Shown here in pieces: positions 9,320 to 20,417 of a stretch of DNA of 20,417 bases; position 1 is the first letter of the stretch, and each line of letters begins with the position of its first letter. The notes under the pieces were generated by a model, which was given only the letters and a program-made list of their open reading frames with translations, was not told where the DNA came from and searched no databases. The translations under genes were made by a program, and so were the position numbers. Source of the DNA: a virus; IMG/VR virus record IMGVR_UViG_3300035703_001565, positions 1 to 20,417 of that record; one strand, 5' to 3'.

Positions 9320-9847
9320 TCATGCAGCAACAGTTTCTCGAACTGTTTCTTTTACATATTCAAAAACAACTTCTGGAGTAGTCGCTTCGTAAGGGTCGGT
9401 GTCTGCGTTGTCCCGTTGCCCCACTTCCACGAATAGTTTTTCGATGATTCCATTATCCACGATCGCAGCATAACGCCAAGAGCGATCACCGAAACCAAGG
9501 TTGGACTTATTAACAAGCATTCCCATAGAACGTGTGAAGTAAGCATTGCCGTCTGGAATGAGTTTGACTTTCTCAATGTTCTGGTCTTGTGCCCAAGCAT
9601 TCATCACAAACCCATCATTAACAGAGATGCAATAAATGTCATCAATGCCAAGTCCAATAAAATCTTCGTACTTCTCTTCGAATCCAGGCAGTTGATAAGC
9701 AGAGCAAGTAGGAGTGAATGCACCAGGCAGACTGAAAATAACCACACGCTTACCATCAAAAAGTTCCGCAGATGTGCGAGTTACAAATTCACCAGACTCA
9801 CGAAAGGTGAATTGAACTTGAGGAACTTGATAACCTTCGCTACGCAT
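9320..9847 (-). CDS. Peroxiredoxin (Prx5/thioredoxin-fold type)
   Basis: The frame opens upstream at 9925, but the ATG at 9847 is chosen because GGAGG sits 5 nt before it and the upstream part overlaps the mini-Hlip gene. The product is about 175 aa, beginning MRSEGYQVPQVQFTFRESGE. The active-site loop FSLPGAFTPTCS holds the peroxidatic Cys (C48) with the conserved Pro/Thr of the PxxxTxxC motif, and SWRYAAIVDNG supplies the conserved Arg. It ends with an acidic/helical tail; no glutaredoxin domain is attached. It should reduce hydrogen peroxide and alkyl peroxides with a host thiol donor. In this position (with Hlips and ferredoxin) it probably limits photo-oxidative damage in the infected cell. 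An ATG at 9859 is an alternative start. Confidence 0.88.
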   Translation of the reverse strand: MRSEGYQVPQVQFTFRESGEFVTRTSAELFDGKRVVIFSLPGAFTPTCSAYQLPGFEEKYEDFIGLGIDDIYCISVNDGFVMNAWAQDQNIEKVKLIPDGNAYFTRSMGMLVNKSNLGFGDRSWRYAAIVDNGIIEKLFVEVGQRDNADTDPYEATTPEVVFEYVKETVRETVAA

Positions 9848-9860
9848 TTTAACCTCCATC

Positions 9861-9964
9861 TCACCAAATTCCGGGGATGATTTGTCCGGTAGCGGCATAG
9901 CTACCCATTGCAGCAATAATACCAATCATTGCTGCCCATCCATTAATACGTTCTGCTCTTTCGT

Positions 9965-9968: not shown

Positions 9969-10488
<520 letters not shown>

Positions 10489-10907: not shown

Positions 10908-11870
10908 TTACTGACCAATACGACCAACAGCAAGACGTGCTTTGTTCAGAATACTACCAGAAAGAGGAACATATCCAAGGTCATCAGCAATCGATTGTGC
11001 CTTAGTGCTAAGAGCATAATTCAGAGCAGCACGGATATCATCTGTCTTTGCGCCATTACCTTTCTTATAGGCAAGAATCCAAGTCAAGGTAGAAATTGGA
11101 TATGCATTTACGCCAGCAGGATTGGGATTCTCGCCAGCAAGATTAGCATCCAGAGTAATACCATTCAGAGCAGCAGAACCAGTCACGGCAGAAGGTCCAA
11201 CGAACTTACCTGCCTTGTTTTGGAGAACTGCTGCCTGAAGTTTGTTAGCACGAACAAATCCAGTGTTCACATAACCAATCGCACCAGCAGTATTCTTGAT
11301 GGTTCCAGCAACACCTTCATTACCTTTTGAGCCAACACCAGTAGGCCACTTGACTGCTTTACCAACACCAGGTTTCCAACCACCAAAAGCATCCAGAGAA
11401 TTAGTGAATGCAAAAGTAGTTCCAGAACCATCAGAACGATACACCACTTGAATAGGACCAGCGGCACAACCAAGTGCTTTCCAATCCTTAATGCGTCCAG
11501 AGAACACATCAACGGTTTGCTTCTGAGTCAGTTTTAGTTTGCAACCAGGCTTATTATAAGCAACAGCAATCGTTCCACCTACCATAGGAATTTGAACGAC
11601 ACCACGCTTCACCTGTTTTGCTTCTGATGCTTTGATCGGTTCATCAGACGCACCAAAATCGACGGTCCCAGCGATGAACTGACGAACACCAGCACCAGAA
11701 CCGACAGATTGGTAATTAACACGATTTCCAGTAGACGCAGCATAATCTTGGAACCAGCGTTGATAAATTGGTGCAGGGAAGGTGGCACCAGCACCATTCA
11801 AAGTAGATCCAGCAAGAGCGGCAGCAGGAGCGGCAACCAGACCAACAGCAATAAAATTTTTGAGTTTCAT
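10908..11870 (-). CDS. pstS: Phosphate-binding protein PstS
   Basis: This 320-aa protein has a signal peptide (MKLKNFIAVGLVAAPAAALA), the PstS opening STLNGAGATFPAPIYQRW and phosphate-contact segments VGSGAGVRQF, DFGASDEPI and YRSDGSGTTFAFTN. It is the periplasmic substrate-binding protein of the high-affinity phosphate ABC transporter; the permease and ATPase genes are absent here and would be supplied by the host. It is monocistronic, flanked by terminators, with a Pho-box-like repeat array and a -10 upstream (11905-11964). Phage pstS genes in marine cyanophages are known to be induced in phosphate-starved hosts via PhoB, which fits this arrangement. GC content is visibly higher than in the glycan genes. 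Confidence 0.97.
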   Translation of the reverse strand: MKLKNFIAVGLVAAPAAALAGSTLNGAGATFPAPIYQRWFQDYAASTGNRVNYQSVGSGAGVRQFIAGTVDFGASDEPIKASEAKQVKRGVVQIPMVGGTIAVAYNKPGCKLKLTQKQTVDVFSGRIKDWKALGCAAGPIQVVYRSDGSGTTFAFTNSLDAFGGWKPGVGKAVKWPTGVGSKGNEGVAGTIKNTAGAIGYVNTGFVRANKLQAAVLQNKAGKFVGPSAVTGSAALNGITLDANLAGENPNPAGVNAYPISTLTWILAYKKGNGAKTDDIRAALNYALSTKAQSIADDLGYVPLSGSILNKARLAVGRIGQ

Positions 11871-12015: not shown

Positions 12016-13482
12016 TCAGAACTTGAAGGTAGTCTGGATTACACCACCCCAGTTAGAGGAATTGCCAGCAAGGCGCTGATTGTCACTTCCATAAATGATA
12101 GCAGGAGTGATGCTGATGTTATCAGATACTTGATACTTGTAGAAAACTTCAAGCATCGTTGCCTTCTCAAGGTCTTCACCAGTAGGGGCCTGACCGATAG
12201 CAACCCCAGCAGAGTTGCCATCAACAAACACATCTTCCCACTGAAGACCAGCAAACCAAGACTGGCTATCGGTAGCAGCACTAGGAGTACCGCTTACAGT
12301 GTTCCAACCATAACCTGCAGAGACAGAAGGAACAATACCAGACTTAGAAGGTTGCCAGTATGCATTCAGGGCATAACCATTAGAGGTTTGGCCAGGAACC
12401 AGAGTACCAGAAGAACCATCAAGACCATTATAGGTACGAACACGAGTGCCTTCAGTACCATAACGATAACCAAATGCAGCACCCCAATTAGTACCACGAT
12501 AACCAATTTGTGCGAGAGTATTCAGAGCACCAGTCTCATCAAACTCACCCTTAGAACTATCTTGACCTGCTTGGGCAACATAGTTTACACCAGCAACAAG
12601 ACCTTTCTTACCATACTGAGCACCGAAACCAGCACCAGTTGCCTTGTTATAGACGCCAGGAGTACCAGCAACAGCAAAGAAGTCAAGAATACCAGACTTA
12701 TATGCAGAAGGCATCCAGGCAATCTCAGTGTTACGAACTGCAGCACCAGCAGTCAGAGTTGCTTTGTTATTGAAAGCAGGGAACTGATAGTACAGACGGT
12801 CGATAACTACATTGTTACCAACTTCACTGGAAGTGTTGTCAGCTTTATCCAGTTTGAACAGAGAAGAACTAGAACCAAACGGATCACTGCTGAAATTAGC
12901 AGAGCGCAGACGAGTCTTGAGAAGATCTTTACCAGTAAATGAAGTATCCAGATTCAGGCGTAGATCGTAGTTGAATGCAGCATGAGTTACATCACCACCT
13001 TTGGTTTGATATTCATCGACATTACCAATTACAAAGTTTACTTCACCACGCAGTTTGGTAGTGGTGGAGAACTGAGTTGCTTCAAGTTGTCCAACTTGGG
13101 CTTCCAGTTTAGAAACAGAACCTTGAATTACAGTCAGTTCATTGCGGAACTCATCAGCAAGACGCTTTAATTCATCAGTTTGTTCAGTTACACGATCAAG
13201 GCAAGCATTTAGAAGTGCTGCTGCCTCATAACGGGTCATTGCCTTAACACCGCCATAAGTTCCGTTAGGATAACCAGCAACGCAACCATAACGCTCTACG
13301 AGGTTGCTGAGTGCCTGATAAGCCCAATCGGTAGGTTGAACATCAGACAGTTGATTGATACTTGTGACCTGTTCAGAAGAATATTGATTGACTGCTGCCA
13401 TATTAAGATCTGCCGCATTCGCAGCAACAGGAGCAACCATTCCCAGAGCAACAGGTGCAAGCATCAGTTGTTTGAGTTTCAT
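12016..13482 (-). CDS. Cyanobacterial outer-membrane porin with SLH domain
   Basis: This 488-aa protein has a signal peptide (about 1-23, ending VAANA), an SLH domain (about 45-97, DVQPTDWAYQALSNLVERYG to RYEAAALLNACLDRV) that binds peptidoglycan-linked polymer, a coiled coil (about 100-136, EQTDELKRLADEF and SKLEAQVGQL), and a long OprB/Som-type beta-barrel with alternating aromatic strands ending in Phe (GGVIQTTFKF), the outer-membrane insertion signal. It is a complete cyanobacterial-type porin, so its gene was probably taken from a host. It has its own sigma70-like promoter and terminator, and lies next to pstS, so it may raise outer-membrane permeability for phosphate or other ions in the infected cell (inference). 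It could also alter the surface against superinfecting phage. Confidence 0.9.
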   Translation of the reverse strand: MKLKQLMLAPVALGMVAPVAANAADLNMAAVNQYSSEQVTSINQLSDVQPTDWAYQALSNLVERYGCVAGYPNGTYGGVKAMTRYEAAALLNACLDRVTEQTDELKRLADEFRNELTVIQGSVSKLEAQVGQLEATQFSTTTKLRGEVNFVIGNVDEYQTKGGDVTHAAFNYDLRLNLDTSFTGKDLLKTRLRSANFSSDPFGSSSSLFKLDKADNTSSEVGNNVVIDRLYYQFPAFNNKATLTAGAAVRNTEIAWMPSAYKSGILDFFAVAGTPGVYNKATGAGFGAQYGKKGLVAGVNYVAQAGQDSSKGEFDETGALNTLAQIGYRGTNWGAAFGYRYGTEGTRVRTYNGLDGSSGTLVPGQTSNGYALNAYWQPSKSGIVPSVSAGYGWNTVSGTPSAATDSQSWFAGLQWEDVFVDGNSAGVAIGQAPTGEDLEKATMLEVFYKYQVSDNISITPAIIYGSDNQRLAGNSSNWGGVIQTTFKF

Positions 13483-13559: not shown

Positions 13560-13589
13560 ATTTTAACATTTTCTTTGGGATCATGTCAA
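13560..13589 (-). promoter_or_regulatory. Sigma70-type promoter of the porin gene
   Basis: On the minus strand TTGACA (13589-13584) and TAAAAT (13565-13560) are 18 nt apart, about 78 nt before the porin ATG. The -35 overlaps the stop codon of the GT25 gene. A 10-bp palindrome TTAGTACTAA lies in the leader (about 13496-13505). Confidence 0.6.
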
Positions 13590-14404
13590 GTGCTTTGTTG
13601 GGATGATGAGTTTTCAGTTATTCGTCCAAGATAAGGATCATAATTCATGTGATCCTTAATATTAATAGTTGCTCCAAGTTGTTGCCAATAATTAAGTAAA
13701 GCATCATGAGGTGCTTTGTGAAAGATTCCCAAATGTTCGGGATGAATTGCAGATCCCATTTCTAAGTTATAAAGAAACAGAGGAATAGTATAAGTTTTGC
13801 CAGTTTCTAAAATAGTATCTTCAGAAACTGCTCTGGGTTTTACACCATTATCCAACTTAAACTTATCACCACGAACATGATGTTTCATTAGTTTTGCAGC
13901 ATGGTGTCTGCTTATCAAGTAAATCGCAGCAGAAAAATCATTGATGAATTTTAAATGCAATTTAACATGAATATCTCCTGTACAAATTGTTGTGAGTTGG
14001 ACACAATCCCAATCATAAGGAATTTCGGCAAAAAAGTCAGTCCAAGTAAAATTCCAATACCTTACAATATCAAAATTTACATCATCCTCAAGAATCAAAC
14101 AATAATCATCATTGCTGTTTTCATAAAAATGTTTGATTGCCTTAAGATGCGACATACAACATCCCAATTCATTTTGAGAGACATTATCAGGGATTCTACC
14201 TTTCAAATGACCAGAAACATCATCTATCCTTCCATCATATCCAGAAATACGTGTATGATTTTCAATTTCCCAGTGTTTAAACTGATTTTCCATATACTCA
14301 CGACGATGAGTATCTGCATCAAGGTTTAACCAGTAAACATGAGGAACTCCTTTAAGTTTGTATGCAGACTTATTCTTGTCCATCAGTAATTCTTGTCCAG
14401 TCAT
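13586..14404 (-). CDS. GT25-family glycosyltransferase
   Basis: This protein of up to 272 aa resembles LPS glycosyltransferases of family 25: an N-terminal VYWLNLDADTHRREYMENQF segment (the usual V-x-N-L-x-x-x-x-R-R), NELGCCMSHLKAIKHF (GCxxSH) and the LILEDDV metal/nucleotide-sugar motif near residue 125. These enzymes add galactose or related sugars to lipooligosaccharide or capsule. It is the last gene of the glycan operon. The ATG at 14404 overlaps the upstream GT11 gene by 35 nt; an ATG at 14383 would reduce this to 14 nt, closer to other junctions here. Neither has a strong ribosome-binding site. Confidence 0.85.
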   Translation of the reverse strand: MTGQELLMDKNKSAYKLKGVPHVYWLNLDADTHRREYMENQFKHWEIENHTRISGYDGRIDDVSGHLKGRIPDNVSQNELGCCMSHLKAIKHFYENSNDDYCLILEDDVNFDIVRYWNFTWTDFFAEIPYDWDCVQLTTICTGDIHVKLHLKFINDFSAAIYLISRHHAAKLMKHHVRGDKFKLDNGVKPRAVSEDTILETGKTYTIPLFLYNLEMGSAIHPEHLGIFHKAPHDALLNYWQQLGATINIKDHMNYDPYLGRITENSSSQQST

Positions 14405-15194
14405 CGGGAATTAAATCTTTAGTATTGTGGTTTTTTGTATATCCAGTTTTTCCAAACCATTGAACTGGAGCAATTACTTTTTTATTTTTATTAGCAGAAA
14501 GCCATGCGCCCCACCAAGAGTACGAAGAATTTGCAATAATAAAATCCTTACAGAGAGACATTAAGCAAAGATCTACTCTATTATCTGTATTTTCCGAAAT
14601 CAAGAATCTATCATCAGAAAATAATTTTTGCACTTTACACCATTCAGGATCATCAGAAAAAACGATCACATTGCGATTATCATCAAAATATTTTAGTGCC
14701 GCTTCATAATATAGAAGGGGTAGATTGAAATGATTTTCACTGTTTGTAATATAATCTGTTCTACGTACATGTAGTGCGATAGGATTATCAACAGACTCTA
14801 TCATCTCTTTGCATGGATTTAGAATTTCATCTTTAAATGTAAAATCTTCACGAATTTCATTTTCAATATGCTTGAAATATTTTTCAGTCTGAAAATATCC
14901 AATAAGACTAACATGATCGGGACACATAGTAAAAAGTTCTTCATCAAAATGAAAAAACCTTTCTTGCACTGAAGGTGCATGTCCATTATTAAGCAGTCCA
15001 ATGTTTACATTTAAATCAAATGCATCAAAAAGTTCTGTTCTGAGTTTGTTGCCAATACCATCATCAACTTCCTGAGAGTGATTTGGAATACAAAAATCAA
15101 CTCCATTATTTTTTGCAATACCTTTGAGTGATGCATACTGGAACATCTGATTGGCAAATCTTCCCATTCGCCCAAGTGCATTAAATCCTATCAT
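14370..15194 (-). CDS. GT11 alpha-1,2-fucosyltransferase-type glycosyltransferase (copy 2)
   Basis: This 274-aa protein has the GT11 hallmarks: N-terminal GRMGRFANQMFQYASLKGIA, motif I ALHVRRTDY (HxRRxD), VIVFSDDPEWC, and near the end FIIANSSYSWWGAWLS. GT11 enzymes transfer fucose (or a similar GDP-sugar-derived residue) to beta-galactosides; the actual donor is not visible and no GDP-fucose synthesis gene is in the window. It is a paralogue of the gene at 15994, sharing NQMFQYASLxGIAKN. The start overlaps the upstream GT gene by 4 nt. Confidence 0.9.
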   Translation of the reverse strand: MIGFNALGRMGRFANQMFQYASLKGIAKNNGVDFCIPNHSQEVDDGIGNKLRTELFDAFDLNVNIGLLNNGHAPSVQERFFHFDEELFTMCPDHVSLIGYFQTEKYFKHIENEIREDFTFKDEILNPCKEMIESVDNPIALHVRRTDYITNSENHFNLPLLYYEAALKYFDDNRNVIVFSDDPEWCKVQKLFSDDRFLISENTDNRVDLCLMSLCKDFIIANSSYSWWGAWLSANKNKKVIAPVQWFGKTGYTKNHNTKDLIPDDWTRITDGQE

Positions 15195-15997
15195 TTTAAT
15201 TGCTCTTTTCTTATTTTCAGATAATCCTGATTTTCATAATAACTCACCAATTTATTTTTGTCAAATGTTTTGATAGTATTCCATAGTTGCCAATTGTTGT
15301 TAAAATTTGGATTACTAAACCAAGAATTATGTGTTCTTGCATGTTCTAAATGATAAACATAATCATGAATCCTTTCTATTCTATTGCCAAGAACACTCAT
15401 ACGATAATAAAATTCATCATCTTCGCATCCCCAAGAAATAAAGTTTTCATTCATCATATATGAGTCAATATATTTTTGGCGATTAATAAATTGAGTCCAT
15501 CCAATGGTTGAATTTGATAGAGATTTATTTAAATCTAGGATGGATATGTCTAAAGATTCTACGAATTTCTCATATATTTCCATATTATATTCTGCTTTCC
15601 ATTGATAAATTCCACAACCATAAGGATACACTACGTCTGCTTGATCATTATCAATCAAATTATACGCAATAAAATAAGAGTCTAAGGGTAAGATGCAATC
15701 AGCATCATAATTTGCAACTACTTTTGTTTCTGATGCAACTATCAAATCATTTAAGACTTTACTTTTGCAAAACAAAGAGTCATTACTTTCTTCAAACAAA
15801 TAAGTTAGATTATCAATGTTTGCATACTTTTTAATTTCAGGAATAGCTCTGAATTTAAAAGTTTCTTTATCAGAAACTTCCTTAACTATAACTTTTGCTG
15901 GAATATGCCTTAATAGGTAAGAAACAGAAGATATAATATTACGCAATCTATCTTCTGTTTCAATTCTGGTTGGAATTAAAAAAGTTAAGTCCATCAT
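15191..15997 (-). CDS. GT2/GT7-like (galactosyltransferase-type) glycosyltransferase
   Basis: This 268-aa GT-A-fold enzyme has a DxD motif in VVANYDADCILPL (near residue 96) and the Glyco_transf_7C-like signature FISWGCEDDEFYYRM (near residue 185), found in N-acetylgalactosaminyl/galactosyltransferases and predicted capsule glycosyltransferases. It begins MMDLTFLIPTRIETEDRLRN; either of the first two Met codons could be used. It lies between two GT11 paralogues with 4-nt overlaps on both sides. Donor and acceptor cannot be inferred. Confidence 0.85.
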   Translation of the reverse strand: MMDLTFLIPTRIETEDRLRNIISSVSYLLRHIPAKVIVKEVSDKETFKFRAIPEIKKYANIDNLTYLFEESNDSLFCKSKVLNDLIVASETKVVANYDADCILPLDSYFIAYNLIDNDQADVVYPYGCGIYQWKAEYNMEIYEKFVESLDISILDLNKSLSNSTIGWTQFINRQKYIDSYMMNENFISWGCEDDEFYYRMSVLGNRIERIHDYVYHLEHARTHNSWFSNPNFNNNWQLWNTIKTFDKNKLVSYYENQDYLKIRKEQLK

Positions 15998-16857
15998 ACT
16001 CTAACAACCTCACGATTAACTTTTAATGTTCTAGGAAAATAATATCCAGATGTATCTAGATGACTTAAAGCGACACCAAACCAAGGATCTGGAATATAGA
16101 CTTTTTTATCTTTACTATTTCCAAGATATGCCATCCACCAAGAGAATGTACTATTAGCAATAATAAAATCAGAACAAGAGGAACCTAGGCACATATCATG
16201 ATGTGCTTTTTCATTTTCTTCCCTTTCTTCATCATTAAATATAAAATTACTTCCAACAAAAATTTTCTTACACCACTCAATGTCATCAGATATTACAATA
16301 AACTGGCGATCTTTGCCTAGATCTTCAATACAATCAAAATAATATTTTTCATTGCAAATTGCATGGTAATCTTGAACTCTAATAAAATCTTTTCCTCTTC
16401 TAATGTTTAAACAAACGGGATTATCTGCATTATGTTTTTTATGAAAAGCATCTGCGGTTTCTAGATACTTTTCTTTAAATACAAAATCTTTTCTTATTTC
16501 TTTCTCTGCATTTTCGAAATACTTATAACTTTCAAAGTGTCCATATAGACTTGCATTATCTGGGCATTCATTAAATAATTCTTCACAAAATTCATGCTGA
16601 TGAACATCTATCTCATATCCATCAACTAAACCAAATCTACCATTTAGATGATTAAGTTCAAACAAGTGTTGTAAGTGATGATTTACAGTAACAATTTCAT
16701 CGCCAACATGTTTATGAAACCATTTTGCCTCAGAATGATCTGGGATACAATGTTCGTATCCCATATTCTTTGCAATTCCAACTAAAGAAGCATACTGAAA
16801 CATTTGGTTACCAAGTCTACCCTTGGTTCCCAGTTTATTCATTCCTATCATACTCAA
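15994..16857 (-). CDS. GT11-type glycosyltransferase (copy 1, altered motif I)
   Basis: This 287-aa protein is recognisable by GRLGNQMFQYASLVGIAKNM at the N-terminus, FIVISDDIEWCKKIF in the middle and FIIANSTFSWWMAYLG near the C-terminus, all shared with the GT11 gene at 14370. The usual HxRRxD motif reads NIRRGKDF here, with His replaced by Asn and one extra residue before the Asp, so donor specificity or activity may differ. It has a longer middle region than its paralogue. The start overlaps the cupin gene by 4 nt. Confidence 0.87.
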   Translation of the reverse strand: MSMIGMNKLGTKGRLGNQMFQYASLVGIAKNMGYEHCIPDHSEAKWFHKHVGDEIVTVNHHLQHLFELNHLNGRFGLVDGYEIDVHQHEFCEELFNECPDNASLYGHFESYKYFENAEKEIRKDFVFKEKYLETADAFHKKHNADNPVCLNIRRGKDFIRVQDYHAICNEKYYFDCIEDLGKDRQFIVISDDIEWCKKIFVGSNFIFNDEEREENEKAHHDMCLGSSCSDFIIANSTFSWWMAYLGNSKDKKVYIPDPWFGVALSHLDTSGYYFPRTLKVNREVVRV

Positions 16858-17207
16858 TCACCCTTTTCAATTCTATAACTATCTTCATCAAAATGCTTGG
16901 TTGAAAATTCAAACAACTCAGTATCCTCCAGGGCAATCATTTGATGTCTTAATCCACGATAGATATGAAACTTGTCTCCTGGGTTTAGAATAATCTCAAG
17001 AGCATATTTTAATTCGTCCTCATCACTATACTTTAAAAGTATTTTACCGGATTGAATGTAAAAAGTTTCATCTTTAAGTTTATGATAATGCCATGAACAC
17101 CTTCTATCCTTTACAAAGTAAAGAACTTTTCCACAATACTCATCACAATTTACTATCCACTTTTCAAATCCCCAACCCTTGGGAACAAATTTAATTGAAG
17201 AACTCAT
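16854..17207 (-). CDS. Cupin-fold protein, sugar-phosphate isomerase/epimerase-like
   Basis: With the ATG at 17207 the product is 117 aa (MSSSIKFVPKGWGFEKWIVN). The cupin metal site is visible: H40 and H42 (WHYHKLKDET), E47 and H88 (RGLRHQMIAL), with NPGDKFHI between. It is a single cupin domain like the C-terminal domain of type II mannose-6-phosphate isomerases or small sugar-modifying cupins. The frame extends to 17258, but the later ATG gives a 17-nt overlap with the HAD gene, the same as the junction upstream. It is likely to act on a sugar or sugar-nucleotide intermediate of the operon; the substrate is unknown. Confidence 0.75.
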   Translation of the reverse strand: MSSSIKFVPKGWGFEKWIVNCDEYCGKVLYFVKDRRCSWHYHKLKDETFYIQSGKILLKYSDEDELKYALEIILNPGDKFHIYRGLRHQMIALEDTELFEFSTKHFDEDSYRIEKGD

Positions 17208-17511
17208 TTGCATTAATTCCCTTATCATCAATGTAATAATCACCAGAGGGTTTTCCAAGCATTAGTTTGTGATATTTACATCCCCACTCATCTAATTGAT
17301 TTGTGGTTAGTTCATAAAACATTTTTCTTGCTAGGTCTGCATTGTCTCCATAGCGACCCATTCCTCTAGCTGTTAGATATACGATTGTATGTCCTTCATC
17401 GTATAGTTTATTTATTTTTTCAATATGAGAAGGAATTGATGTTGCTTCTTCATAGTTTCCATTAGAAACAGGAGTGCAAATAGTTCCGTCAATATCAACA
17501 ATATACTTCAT
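17191..17511 (-). CDS. Small HAD-superfamily phosphatase
   Basis: The start at ATG 17511 gives about 106 aa beginning MKYIVDIDGTICTP. The DxDGT nucleophile motif (D6 and D8) is followed by IVYLTARGMG (motif II Thr) and GKPSGDYYIDDKGI (motif III Lys and motif IV Asp pair). It is short for GmhB (about 190 aa) and closer to the small capsule-biosynthesis phosphatases of the EcbF/BcbF type. Its position directly after the HldE-type nucleotidyltransferase gene (17-nt overlap) suggests it may supply the phosphatase step of heptose activation. That is inference; another sugar phosphate is possible. The frame extends to 17550, but that start would lie deeper in the upstream gene. Confidence 0.8.
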   Translation of the reverse strand: MKYIVDIDGTICTPVSNGNYEEATSIPSHIEKINKLYDEGHTIVYLTARGMGRYGDNADLARKMFYELTTNQLDEWGCKYHKLMLGKPSGDYYIDDKGINANEFFN

Positions 17512-17899
17512 GAATTTTCTCAATAATTTTTGTAGTAGAATAATTACCAACGCGATTAAAGAATCTTACTTCTTTAGCAAATTGTCTTCCAACAACTTCT
17601 CCAGTTTTCCAATCACTACCAACCATAAGAATGTCGGGAGAATATAATTCAATAAGATCTTCAAGTTCGCTTTTACTTCCAAATGAAAGAACAACATCAA
17701 TATATTTTATTGATTCTAGCATAAATTTTCGAAAATACAATGAATTGATAGGTCTAGAGTTTCCTTTGTCATTTTTCACTTTTTCATCAGTATCAATACC
17801 AACTACCAACCTATCTCCAAGAGACTTGGCAACCTTAAACAATTCAATATGTCCCGGATGAAGAACATCAAAGCAACCATTTACCCATACTGTTTTCAT
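17495..17899 (-). CDS. hldE: Heptose-1-phosphate nucleotidyltransferase (HldE C-terminal domain type)
   Basis: This 134-aa protein is a complete RfaE domain II-type nucleotidyltransferase: WVNGCFDVLHPGHIELFKVA (HxGH, H14 and H17), GDRLVVGIDTDEKVK, SRPINSLYFRKFML and YSTTKIIEKI at the end, as in the C-terminal half of HldE. It is expected to join D-glycero-beta-D-manno-heptose 1-phosphate to AMP, giving ADP-heptose. The kinase half is a separate gene two positions upstream, so the E. coli-type fusion is split here with the epimerase between. The TagD-type cytidylyltransferase alternative is less likely because of the RfaE-like C-terminus. Confidence 0.85.
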   Translation of the reverse strand: MKTVWVNGCFDVLHPGHIELFKVAKSLGDRLVVGIDTDEKVKNDKGNSRPINSLYFRKFMLESIKYIDVVLSFGSKSELEDLIELYSPDILMVGSDWKTGEVVGRQFAKEVRFFNRVGNYSTTKIIEKIHEVYC

Positions 17900-18684
17900 T
17901 TCAAGTAATCCTCCACAGTCATAAATTTATAATCATCCCATTCTTTTTTAGCACACGTATAATCTTGATATTTACCTTTTAAGTGGTCTGGAAATGGAAT
18001 GTATTCTATTTCACCGTTATACTTTTTCACAACAGAGTCTGCAACATGCTGGAAACTTACAGGATTACTTGTGCCTAGATCATAAATGCCAGATTTTTTA
18101 TTGTTATTAAGGACAAGTTCAACAATATCATTAACACAAATGAAATCCCTAAAAAATTTATCAGAACCTTTAAAAAGTTTTAGTTTACCAGTTTCTTGAA
18201 TTTGTTTTGAAAACTTACTTACGGGACTAGATTGATCCCCTTTATGTTCTTCTCCTTCACCATACACATTAAAATATCGAAATCCCTGAATCAAAGGAAA
18301 TTCATTCATATGGTCTTGCACCCAGTAATCTATTGTAATCTTTGATAGTGCGTAATAATTAAGTGGATTAATGATTCCCTGCTCATTTCCATACACAGAC
18401 GCCGAAGATGCATACTTAACAGGAATATTATATTTTGCTGCTTGAGAAAATAACCACTCAGTAAAATCAATATTATGAGTAAAGATTGACTTCAAATTAG
18501 TCTCTGTAGTTGAAGATAATGCTCCCTGATGAAGAATTAACTCTACTTTATCCCAATCACGAAAATAACTTCTCCAATGCCAACTATTATTTTTTTCTAC
18601 TTCAACAACTTCTTTTCCTAATGTTTTAAGTTTGTTCAAAAACTTTTTTCCAATGAATCCCTGCGAACCGGTCAATACAATCAT
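17896..18684 (-). CDS. hldD: ADP-heptose 6-epimerase-like SDR (HldD type)
   Basis: This 262-aa extended SDR has the Rossmann motif GSQGFIG (residues 6-12), the catalytic YASSASVYG Ser, Y111 and K115 (NYYALSKI) and the substrate-side GFRYFNVYGEGEEHKGDQSS motif, which closely resembles HldD/RfaD. HldD converts ADP-D-glycero-D-manno-heptose to the L-glycero form. It is somewhat shorter than the usual 310 aa. It lies between the kinase and nucleotidyltransferase genes, with 4-nt overlaps, which strongly supports the heptose assignment. Confidence 0.85.
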   Translation of the reverse strand: MIVLTGSQGFIGKKFLNKLKTLGKEVVEVEKNNSWHWRSYFRDWDKVELILHQGALSSTTETNLKSIFTHNIDFTEWLFSQAAKYNIPVKYASSASVYGNEQGIINPLNYYALSKITIDYWVQDHMNEFPLIQGFRYFNVYGEGEEHKGDQSSPVSKFSKQIQETGKLKLFKGSDKFFRDFICVNDIVELVLNNNKKSGIYDLGTSNPVSFQHVADSVVKKYNGEIEYIPFPDHLKGKYQDYTCAKKEWDDYKFMTVEDYLK

Positions 18685-19409
18685 ATAATTGTTACTCCTT
18701 TCTGCTTTACAACCCTAGATGCACATTCATTTGCAAATTTAATACTCTCAACTATATTCTTTGTTTCGTAGTACTTAACAACAAGTGCTGCCATAAAAGA
18801 ATCACCAGCACCTGATACATCTTTTACTTCAACTTTTTTAACAGGATATCTGGTTCCTCTATATTCACATCCATTTGATCCCATAGTATGAATGATTTTA
18901 TCTTTTAAAATATCAGTCAATTTACTTTCAGAATTTTTATATTCATAATCATTAATTTTAATAAAAGCAGCACCATCAGCCCAAGATCCAAGAATTTTTT
19001 TAGTGTCAATAAAGACATTGGAATGATTAGAGCATATTTGTTTAATATCATTTTCAGATAAAAATCCTTTATCATAATCAGAAATTACAATAATTTCGTG
19101 ATCATAATCAATTAATGACAAATCAATTTTAGGAATTTTCTGTGTTGTGTCTACACGAAAAAATGTATGATTACTAGACTCGTGGACATATCTAGTCTTT
19201 GTAATTTCATACCAATTATCATTAGTAATGATATTACAATCTCTAATTAAACTTTGAATGTTTCTTTGAACATTCTTTGCCATACCAGGATTTTCGGATT
19301 GATCTTTAATATTCAGAACAGGAACAGGAACATCTGGACAGAGACGAAGTGCATCGCAGTACACAAAAACATCTCTAGAACTCTCACCTATAACTAATAT
19401 TTTTTTCAC
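18681..19409 (-). CDS. hldE: PfkB-family heptose-7-phosphate kinase (HldE N-terminal domain type)
   Basis: This 242-aa ribokinase-fold protein starts ILVIGESSRDVFVYCDALRL, aligning to the HldE opening VVGDVMLDRY, with a divergent GGAANVA motif (ENPGMAKNV). The active-site SGAGDSFMAALV (catalytic Asp) lies near residue 205. It should phosphorylate D-glycero-D-manno-heptose 7-phosphate at C1. It is about 70 residues shorter than typical RfaE domain I, with losses in the middle, so activity should be tested rather than assumed. The gene overlaps both neighbours by 4 nt. Confidence 0.82.
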   Translation of the reverse strand: MKKILVIGESSRDVFVYCDALRLCPDVPVPVLNIKDQSENPGMAKNVQRNIQSLIRDCNIITNDNWYEITKTRYVHESSNHTFFRVDTTQKIPKIDLSLIDYDHEIIVISDYDKGFLSENDIKQICSNHSNVFIDTKKILGSWADGAAFIKINDYEYKNSESKLTDILKDKIIHTMGSNGCEYRGTRYPVKKVEVKDVSGAGDSFMAALVVKYYETKNIVESIKFANECASRVVKQKGVTII

Positions 19410-20254
19410 GACTCACCAATGTAAGGTTTATAGAAGTGCATAATATCCTCCGGAGAATGAGGTAGAAAATAACAATAAAGATAACCAGGATTATTTTTCA
19501 AGTTACTTTTAATATTTTTATCATGTGTTTTCATATATATTTTTTCTTTAGATAGTCTTTTTGAAGCCAAAATACCACAAAAAGAATCGCATCCTGCATA
19601 ATAATCGCAATATGCAACTAAGTCAACAATTAGTTTTATATCTGGATTTACAAGAAGTTCAAAGTTTGATAAAGGAACGTGAATATCATGGTCAGATATG
19701 ACTACAACATTTTTTCTTGTTCTATTTGAAAGGTCTTCTACAAAATTCCAATCACTGGAATCTATGGTAGCAATATCATTTCTAGGTCTTGTGGACGTTG
19801 GATAATGAAAAAGAATATAGTCACTGTAAGGAGGTTCCTTTGCATTTCTAATAAAAGAAGAACCAAAATAAAATTGTTCAATATTTACTTTGGATTTTAC
19901 ATCATTACAAACATGAAAAAATCTTTCCATTACATTGATAACTTGGACCTCTTCATTTTGAATTCCAAACAGTTTTAATCCTACTTCAAAGTTAGGATGA
20001 AAATCGGGTCTAAAATGCCAAAAAGGCACAGCAACAGGATCAAGTGTTGCCATTGCCTTTTTACCTTTTTCATCATTTATCTCATGATGATTCTTTAAAT
20101 TTGGATACTCTGGATTATTCTCAAAAAGAGGAATTAAATTTGAACCAAATCTAGAAGCCCAATAAATTTCAGTAATACTTTCCTTTTCTTCAGGTGACAT
20201 GACAGCATCAAGTGCCATCATGTCACCAATTCCTGTTGAAATATATGTTTTCAT
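19406..20254 (-). CDS. GT9-like glycosyltransferase (heptosyltransferase-type), tentative
   Basis: This 282-aa protein begins MKTYISTGIGDMMALDAVMS, a GxGD loop as in GT-B heptosyltransferases. Its C-terminal part has FHYPTSTRPRND, VVVISDHD and LIVDLVAYCDYYAGCDSFCGILASKRL, comparable to the GT9 acceptor-side pattern (A-x-x-D-x-x-x-x-x-D-S-x-x-x-x-x-A). A heptosyltransferase beside genes for making ADP-heptose is a logical partner. The similarity is weak by eye and other GT-B enzymes remain possible. It shares one base with the preceding stop (TGATG) and overlaps the kinase gene by 4 nt. Confidence 0.6.
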   Translation of the reverse strand: MKTYISTGIGDMMALDAVMSPEEKESITEIYWASRFGSNLIPLFENNPEYPNLKNHHEINDEKGKKAMATLDPVAVPFWHFRPDFHPNFEVGLKLFGIQNEEVQVINVMERFFHVCNDVKSKVNIEQFYFGSSFIRNAKEPPYSDYILFHYPTSTRPRNDIATIDSSDWNFVEDLSNRTRKNVVVISDHDIHVPLSNFELLVNPDIKLIVDLVAYCDYYAGCDSFCGILASKRLSKEKIYMKTHDKNIKSNLKNNPGYLYCYFLPHSPEDIMHFYKPYIGES

Positions 20255-20417
20255 CAGTGGAATTTTTTATGTTCAACTATCATTACAGGCCCATCACTGT
20301 CCTTAGCATATCTATACATATCCAATGCTTCTTCTGGAGTTTGTGGATCTAGAACAGGGAAGTCTACCAGTTCTTGGAAAACTTTTGTGAAGTCCTGAGA
20401 GTGAGTAGGGCCAGAAT
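20254..20417 (-). CDS. Thiamine-diphosphate enzyme, E1-beta/transketolase-like (C-terminal end only)
   Basis: The frame enters from the right edge and ends at TGA 20254-20256. The 53 visible residues contain SGPTHSQDF, VLDPQTPEEALDMYRYAKDS and GPVMIVEHKKFH. This is the pattern of the pyrimidine-binding domain of 2-oxoacid dehydrogenase E1-beta subunits and transketolase-like proteins (GxxHSQ, then P-x-T-P-x-x-A, then P-V-x-x-x-E-H). It ends about where the Pyr domain ends, so it lacks the transketolase C-terminal domain. It is likely an enzyme making or modifying a sugar or keto-acid precursor for the glycan operon, perhaps with a partner subunit upstream. The rest of the gene is not in the window. 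Confidence 0.65.
   Translation of the reverse strand, partial: SGPTHSQDFTKVFQELVDFPVLDPQTPEEALDMYRYAKDSDGPVMIVEHKKFH

Follow-up and report, generated by a model that had tools for sequence, protein, structure and literature searches.

A probable cyanophage pathway to an activated seven-carbon sugar for surface glycans

We analyzed a 20,417-bp stretch of viral DNA (the window; the whole of virus record IMGVR_UViG_3300035703_001565) and found on its minus strand an operon whose probable product, judged from sequence, is an activated seven-carbon sugar that would go into a surface glycan. More specifically, we give a probability of about one half to the reading that the enzymes of this phage cassette produce an activated manno-heptose-type sugar in five steps and attach it to a surface glycan. 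The window contains T4-like cyanophage genes and its nearest near-identity DNA matches are to two Synechococcus phages, DSL-LC03 and DSL-LC02 (about 81-83%); the marine habitat assumed in an earlier note on this DNA is unproven.

Results

The proteins of the cassette were identified by homology, from which we infer the order of steps and the substrates. In the proposed route, a cupin would do the job of GmhA and isomerize a C7 ketose phosphate to manno-heptose 7-phosphate; the simplest substrate would be sedoheptulose 7-phosphate drawn from the host's Calvin cycle or pentose pathway. A PfkB kinase would then phosphorylate C1, a small HAD protein would remove the 7-phosphate (the job of GmhB), an HldE2-like enzyme would add the nucleotide, yielding an ADP sugar if one may go by the homology of HldD, and HldD would invert C6. 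These five proposed activities pair one-to-one with five neighboring gene families. Assembly of the glycan would fall to a GT-B-fold protein and to the GT11, GT7-like and GT25 enzymes encoded downstream, and the finished glycan probably changes the infected cell's surface. In this subfamily, an extra step may come from a zinc alcohol dehydrogenase and a thiamine pyrophosphate (TPP) enzyme, which would either supply ketose phosphate or attach a two-carbon branch.

Transcription runs from a partial TPP gene through the genes for the GT-B protein, kinase, HldD, nucleotidyltransferase, HAD and cupin to four glycosyltransferase genes (ending at position 13586; Table 1), with overlaps that continue along the whole operon. 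The earlier note had placed kinase, epimerase and nucleotidyltransferase in one overlapping operon with hldD between the HldE halves, and its coordinates and gene calls are right: each overlaps its neighbor by 4 bp, hldD separates the two HldE-like genes, and the GT-B gene lies ahead of all three. The genes within its interval of 17495-20254 are also correct, but the interval is too short, since the overlapping operon also takes in the HAD, the cupin and the TPP fragment.

Of the enzyme assignments that the sequence of the cassette offers, that of the epimerase is the firmest. It matches the heptose epimerase model TIGR02197 (heptose_epim) at 5e-62, compared to 4e-9 for GalE, and PDB entry 1eq2 at 5e-41. 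Its Tyr111, Lys115 and Lys148 align with Tyr140, Lys144 and Lys178 of E. coli HldD, which we take to be the catalytic residues, and the equivalent positions are invariant in 11 sequences. For the kinase, the best NCBIfam model is TIGR02198 (rfaE_dom_I, 2e-30, versus 4e-11 for ribokinase), the sole PDB profile match at E <1e-10 is the B. cenocepacia heptose-7-phosphate kinase 4e84 (1.2e-21), and the GAGD active-site motif is invariant in the alignment, as is the HxGH motif of the nucleotidyltransferase, which matches TIGR02199 (rfaE_dom_II) at 8e-35 with TagD as the next model (4e-22).

These matches support, in line with the earlier note, a nucleotide-sugar pathway of the heptose type in a T4-like cyanophage, in which the kinase and the nucleotidyltransferase are encoded separately. 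The note's description of the pair as a split HldE is not supported in the sense of a recent split: the kinase, at 242 aa, is about 70 residues shorter than HldE1 and clades with stand-alone kinases apart from picocyanobacterial HldE. Although long branches leave fine placement in the kinase tree unsure, the phage kinase groups with kinases from Patescibacteria and a Chlamydiae bin and not with Prochlorococcus HldE. A recent split of host HldE was rejected on the same tree, which parts phage-type kinases from cyanobacterial HldE with 100/98 support on both sides. Some contigs of the kinase's neighbors in the tree may be mis-binned; one of them, binned as Bifidobacterium breve (L030) and very probably mis-binned, carries a complete cassette of nucleotidyltransferase, cupin, alcohol dehydrogenase, TPP enzyme, kinase, HldD and HAD.

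We then considered the isomerase step, for which the earlier note had suggested looking for gmhA upstream of position 20417. In relatives, that place is taken by genes for a TPP enzyme and a zinc alcohol dehydrogenase. gmhA (PF13580) was found in none of 27 records, including the complete S-SM2, P-TIM68, S-SSM7 and Sf-FS3, and its model TIGR00441 found nothing in 12 of 13 further phage records (the two sets share one, P-SSM5), an absence that rests on relatives, the window itself being a fragment. The exception is SynMITS9220M01, whose SIS protein is encoded next to a second GHMP kinase, in a module that lacks the cupin. In that phage (L083), the second GHMP kinase gene followed by the SIS isomerase gene occupies 14574-16021, a heptose-like module separate from its HddA-cupin-HddC module.

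The cupin is the candidate for this step. Its structure model (mean predicted local distance difference test score, pLDDT, 93.5) has as top Foldseek match the D-lyxose/D-mannose isomerase 7nzp (2e-9) and resembles phosphomannose isomerases in fold (Z 15.1), and its metal ligands His40, His42, Glu47 and His88 are invariant in 13 sequences. Conversion of a ketose phosphate to a manno-aldose phosphate is the reaction type of D-lyxose/D-mannose and phosphomannose isomerases.

The cupin gene also keeps company with heptose genes. All 31 kinase-bearing phage records (about 16 distinct phages) contain it, the 32nd kinase match being a Salmonella bacterial contig; it lies beside the HAD and kinase genes in nearly every cassette, and in P-SSM2, P-SSM5, S-CAM1 and others the nucleotidyltransferase, kinase, HAD, cupin and HldD genes are adjacent. 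Four records have the cupin without the PfkB kinase (SynMITS9220M01, Bellamy twice, and AG-345-E15), and in these phages it is flanked by genes for an HddA-type heptose-7-phosphate kinase and an HddC-like transferase. The cupin therefore tracks heptose pathways across two unrelated kinase families.

Of 565 viral cupin loci, we took the 80 that scored best: a heptose-type kinase gene lies no more than about 6 kb away in 66 (63 PfkB-type and 3 HddA-type), six are cut short or have other core genes only, and the remaining eight have other surroundings and no recognized heptose kinase. Because these are the best-scoring loci and include near-duplicates, the figures count loci and not independent events. 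A strict exclusivity of cupin and heptose genes was rejected on the eight loci in other contexts. Members of the same cupin family without a recognized heptose gene nearby include L159, L161, L162 and L164, and the neighbors in L164 resemble phage structural or terminase genes and not a glycan cluster.

The small HAD protein, the only HAD of the window cassette, is EcbF/BcbF-like (EcbF-BcbF model, 5e-12) and gave no match to a model of GmhB, the HAD-IIIA-type phosphatase. Its profile matches the capsule biosynthesis protein 9iqw (1.6e-21) and its DxD, T, K and D motifs are all conserved. With these motifs intact and a SIS domain absent, we rejected its identity as a phosphoheptose isomerase. 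The PHROG labels "phosphoheptose isomerase" for the HAD (phrog_1238) and "cysteine dioxygenase" for the cupin (phrog_7851), both of which are carried in RefSeq phage records, appear to be wrong.

In relatives of the window, genes for a zinc alcohol dehydrogenase and then a TPP enzyme lie upstream of the kinase gene. The closest relative (L008, kinase 92% identical) has the order dehydrogenase, TPP enzyme, GT-B protein, kinase, HldD, nucleotidyltransferase, HAD and cupin, followed by the same four glycosyltransferases. Full-length TPP relatives match E1_dh and Transket_pyr, a compact fused E1-alpha/E1-beta type; in one such relative no Transketolase_C match was found, and no lipoyl-E2 gene is annotated among the neighbors of the TPP gene in S-SM2 or P-TIM68. 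Identity as the E1 of a pyruvate dehydrogenase complex, which would call for a Transketolase_C domain and an E2 partner, is therefore not supported by these relatives. Elsewhere the same slot is filled by a split transketolase N/pyr (L012, L020) or an E1-alpha/beta pair (L013, L014). In cellular genomes, 32 of 45 loci of the TPP family also have genes for ADP- or GDP-heptose, frequently with dehydratase-, RmlC- and Fcl-like genes as neighbors, and in a Chloroflexi locus (L050) the TPP gene directly follows gmhA, alongside HddC- and HddA-type genes. From this analysis, the TPP enzyme could supply ketose phosphate, which is common to both heptose routes, or place a two-carbon branch on a sugar.

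The GT-B protein has no match in Pfam, NCBIfam or PHROG. A fold search with its AlphaFold model (mean pLDDT 80.5) returned WaaC at Z 8.6, the GT9 structure 3tov at Z 8.1 and UDP-GlcNAc 2-epimerases at Z 8.8-9.4. The GT-B fold and the likeness to WaaC bear out part of the earlier note's description of a GT9-like transferase, but we rejected a firm GT9 assignment given the lack of a family match and the tie in fold with UDP-GlcNAc 2-epimerases.

We also examined hosts and earlier annotations. The Prochlorococcus single cell AG-402-K14 encodes gmhA, gmhB, a fused hldE and hldD adjoining the alcohol dehydrogenase and TPP genes; the contig holds metK and other chromosomal genes as well. By profile, AG-402-G06 has the same set and AG-402-G19 part of it. 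The cupin is absent from all three of these genomes and gmhA is present in two. Across 251 host-family genomes, an HldE2-like domain (E <1e-20) was found in 8 and the TPP enzyme in 1. Reviews describe the lipopolysaccharide (LPS) of cyanobacteria as generally free of heptose, and report the same lack for marine Synechococcus, naming strains WH8102 and CC9311 (PMC4515613, PMC4390846). In phages, heptose-LPS genes were listed for SynMITS9220M01 in a 2020 announcement (PMC7378029), the same gene families are already annotated in P-SSM2, S-SM2, S-SSM7, S-CAM1 and others, and the P-SSM2 and S-SM2 records label clusters heptose kinase/adenyltransferase, nucleotide-sugar epimerase and the like.

The earlier note called such a pathway unexpected in a phage of picocyanobacteria. 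This is weakened because some Prochlorococcus genomes have gmhA, gmhB, hldE and hldD next to genes for the same dehydrogenase and TPP enzyme, and because other cyanophages carry the annotated genes; the rarity of the HldE2-like domain in host genomes and the heptose-free LPS of the reviews still speak for it. The note also held that host genomes with the same operon for a different glycan would count against its reading, and this was found in part, in three Prochlorococcus genomes with heptose genes, two of them with full sets.

Table 1. Genes of the heptose-type operon in the window, in order of transcription
Feature	Position	Strand	Evidence
TPP-dependent enzyme, C-terminal 53 residues and stop; gene runs off the contig	20254..20415	-	79% identity to S-SM2 SSM2_198 over 53 aa
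GT-B-fold protein, candidate (heptosyl)transferase	19406..20254	-	AlphaFold fold; WaaC Z 8.6 over 217 residues
Stand-alone HldE1-like PfkB sugar-phosphate kinase, 242 aa, GTG start	18681..19409	-	TIGR02198 2e-30
HldD-like NDP-heptose 6-epimerase, 262 aa	17896..18684	-	TIGR02197 5e-62
HldE2-like nucleotidyltransferase, 134 aa	17495..17899	-	TIGR02199 8e-35
Small HAD phosphatase, 106 aa, putative GmhB replacement	17191..17511	-	9iqw profile match; EcbF-BcbF 5e-12
Cupin, 117 aa, putative aldose-ketose isomerase in place of GmhA	16854..17207	-	Structure model; Foldseek 7nzp
GT11 glycosyltransferase	15994..16857	-	PF01531 2e-25
GT7-like (Glyco_transf_7C) glycosyltransferase	15191..15997	-	PF02709 6e-7
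GT11 glycosyltransferase	14370..15194	-	PF01531 3e-26
GT25 glycosyltransferase	13586..14404	-	PF01755 3e-10

Beyond the operon, the minus strand encodes a phage-borne outer-membrane porin of cyanobacterial type with SLH and OprB domains (12016-13482; PF04966, 1e-10), adjoining a PstS-like phosphate-binding protein (10908-11870; PF12849, 2e-42), which together suggest nutrient uptake during infection. A peroxiredoxin gene (9320-9904, minus strand; Redoxin PF08534, 8e-26) lies near a ferredoxin gene (10192-10485), and genes for a C39-like peptidase and a phage lysozyme (8582-9253 and 7815-8483, minus strand) have a common N-terminal segment, DLHNFFKFYD...NHV.AVQWLEDNLP.

Discussion

Several observations weigh against the proposed manno-heptose route. 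The kinase (106 of 345 bits), HldD (210 of 275) and nucleotidyltransferase (120 of 181.5) all score below the curated equivalog cut-offs; HldD and the HldE kinase domain of the complete Prochlorococcus operon likewise fall under theirs, so these scores mainly reflect distance from the reference taxa. The PDB profile neighbors of the nucleotidyltransferase are CTP enzymes, which makes CDP a possible nucleotide. For the cupin, profile E-values to sugar isomerases are about 1e-3 to 1e-4, and CapF, Pac13 and KdgF equal the sugar isomerases in score for a fold that is common; the loci with the cupin in other contexts count in the same direction, as do Patescibacterial genomes, possibly incomplete, that carry the dehydrogenase, TPP enzyme and kinase and in which neither gmhA nor the cupin was seen. 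The low scores, the CTP-like profile and the shortened kinase would also fit a different activated sugar, such as a CDP- or ADP-linked C5/C6 sugar or polyol, with the heptose label reflecting family resemblance only. We consider this very unlikely, given that HldD is by far the best epimerase model with catalytic residues kept and that HddA-type kinases take the place of the kinase beside the cupin in three phages.

It is also improbable, though less so, that the cassette is an incomplete ADP-heptose pathway leaning on host GmhA and GmhB, as the earlier note implied, while the cupin and HAD do something else: a few Prochlorococcus genomes do have gmhA and gmhB, but HldE2-like domains are confined to the 8 host-family genomes noted above (gmhA was not surveyed in that set) and the cupin and HAD genes nearly always adjoin the kinase gene. 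Somewhat better placed, yet still rather unlikely, is a product in which the heptose carries an additional two-carbon unit; this would extend and not exclude the manno-heptose route. Here the dehydrogenase would make a keto group, the TPP enzyme would add a branch and a reductase would finish, with the five core genes only preparing the heptose; such branch addition to sugars has been proposed for the E1-type pairs AviB1/AviB2 and Pau11/Pau12 (PMC4753412). In the literature covered on branched sugars, AviB, Pau and YerE were the only precedent. The slot between dehydrogenase and kinase is kept despite three different types of TPP enzyme, and the cellular TPP family is co-located with heptose genes. 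However, the phage cassette shows no 4,6-dehydratase and no acceptor is known, the co-location in polysaccharide islands may be coincidence, and a transketolase-type enzyme in the slot fits ketose-phosphate supply equally well.

Returning to the manno-heptose route, a bolder extension of it is that the cupin represents a so far unrecognized sedoheptulose-7-phosphate isomerase class, standing in for GmhA in both HldE- and HddA-type phage pathways, with the dehydrogenase and TPP enzyme diverting heptose toward an undescribed sugar and the TPP family being common to cyanophages, Patescibacteria, SAR11 and some Prochlorococcus. We offer this tentatively, as possible but doubtful. In the literature covered, which included few subscription papers, we found no report of a cupin in GmhA function, of cupin/HAD replacement or of the TPP link; the proposed replacement and link appear to be new, while heptose-type genes in cyanophages were known already. 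If the proposed route is true, widespread cyanophages encode a complete activated-heptose route in hosts that mostly lack one, and annotation pipelines have labeled an isomerase as a dioxygenase and a phosphatase as an isomerase. The long-noted LPS-type genes of cyanophages would gain a defined, testable product, and a TPP enzyme family would be flagged as heptose-linked across very different microbes.

Compared to the canonical ADP-L-glycero-D-manno-heptose pathway (GmhA, HldE, GmhB, HldD), the cassette has a homologous kinase, nucleotidyltransferase and epimerase and the same number of steps, but it lacks GmhA and GmhB orthologues, with the cupin and small HAD in their putative roles, its kinase is separate and shortened, and a TPP enzyme and alcohol dehydrogenase are extra. 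The GDP-heptose pathway (GmhA, HddA, GmhB, HddC) follows the same logic, and in three phages HddA and HddC homologues flank the same cupin; that pathway uses a GHMP kinase and a different nucleotidyltransferase, whereas the window is of the PfkB/HldE type. The T4-like cyanophage clusters T4-GC 304-308 of P-SSM2, S-SM2 and S-SSM7 comprise the same, already annotated gene families, in piecemeal fashion, with the HAD as phosphoheptose isomerase and the cupin as cysteine dioxygenase. Cupin D-lyxose/D-mannose and phosphomannose isomerases are like the phage cupin in fold, in a three-His/one-Glu metal site and in an N-x-x-x-YC-x-K segment; the phage protein is only about 25% identical to them and shorter than D-lyxose isomerase, and its substrate is a prediction. 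AviB1/AviB2 and Pau11/Pau12, which we take to be E1-like, resemble the phage arrangement in placing a TPP-type enzyme in a nucleotide-sugar cluster, but the phage enzyme is a compact fused protein linked to heptose kinases.

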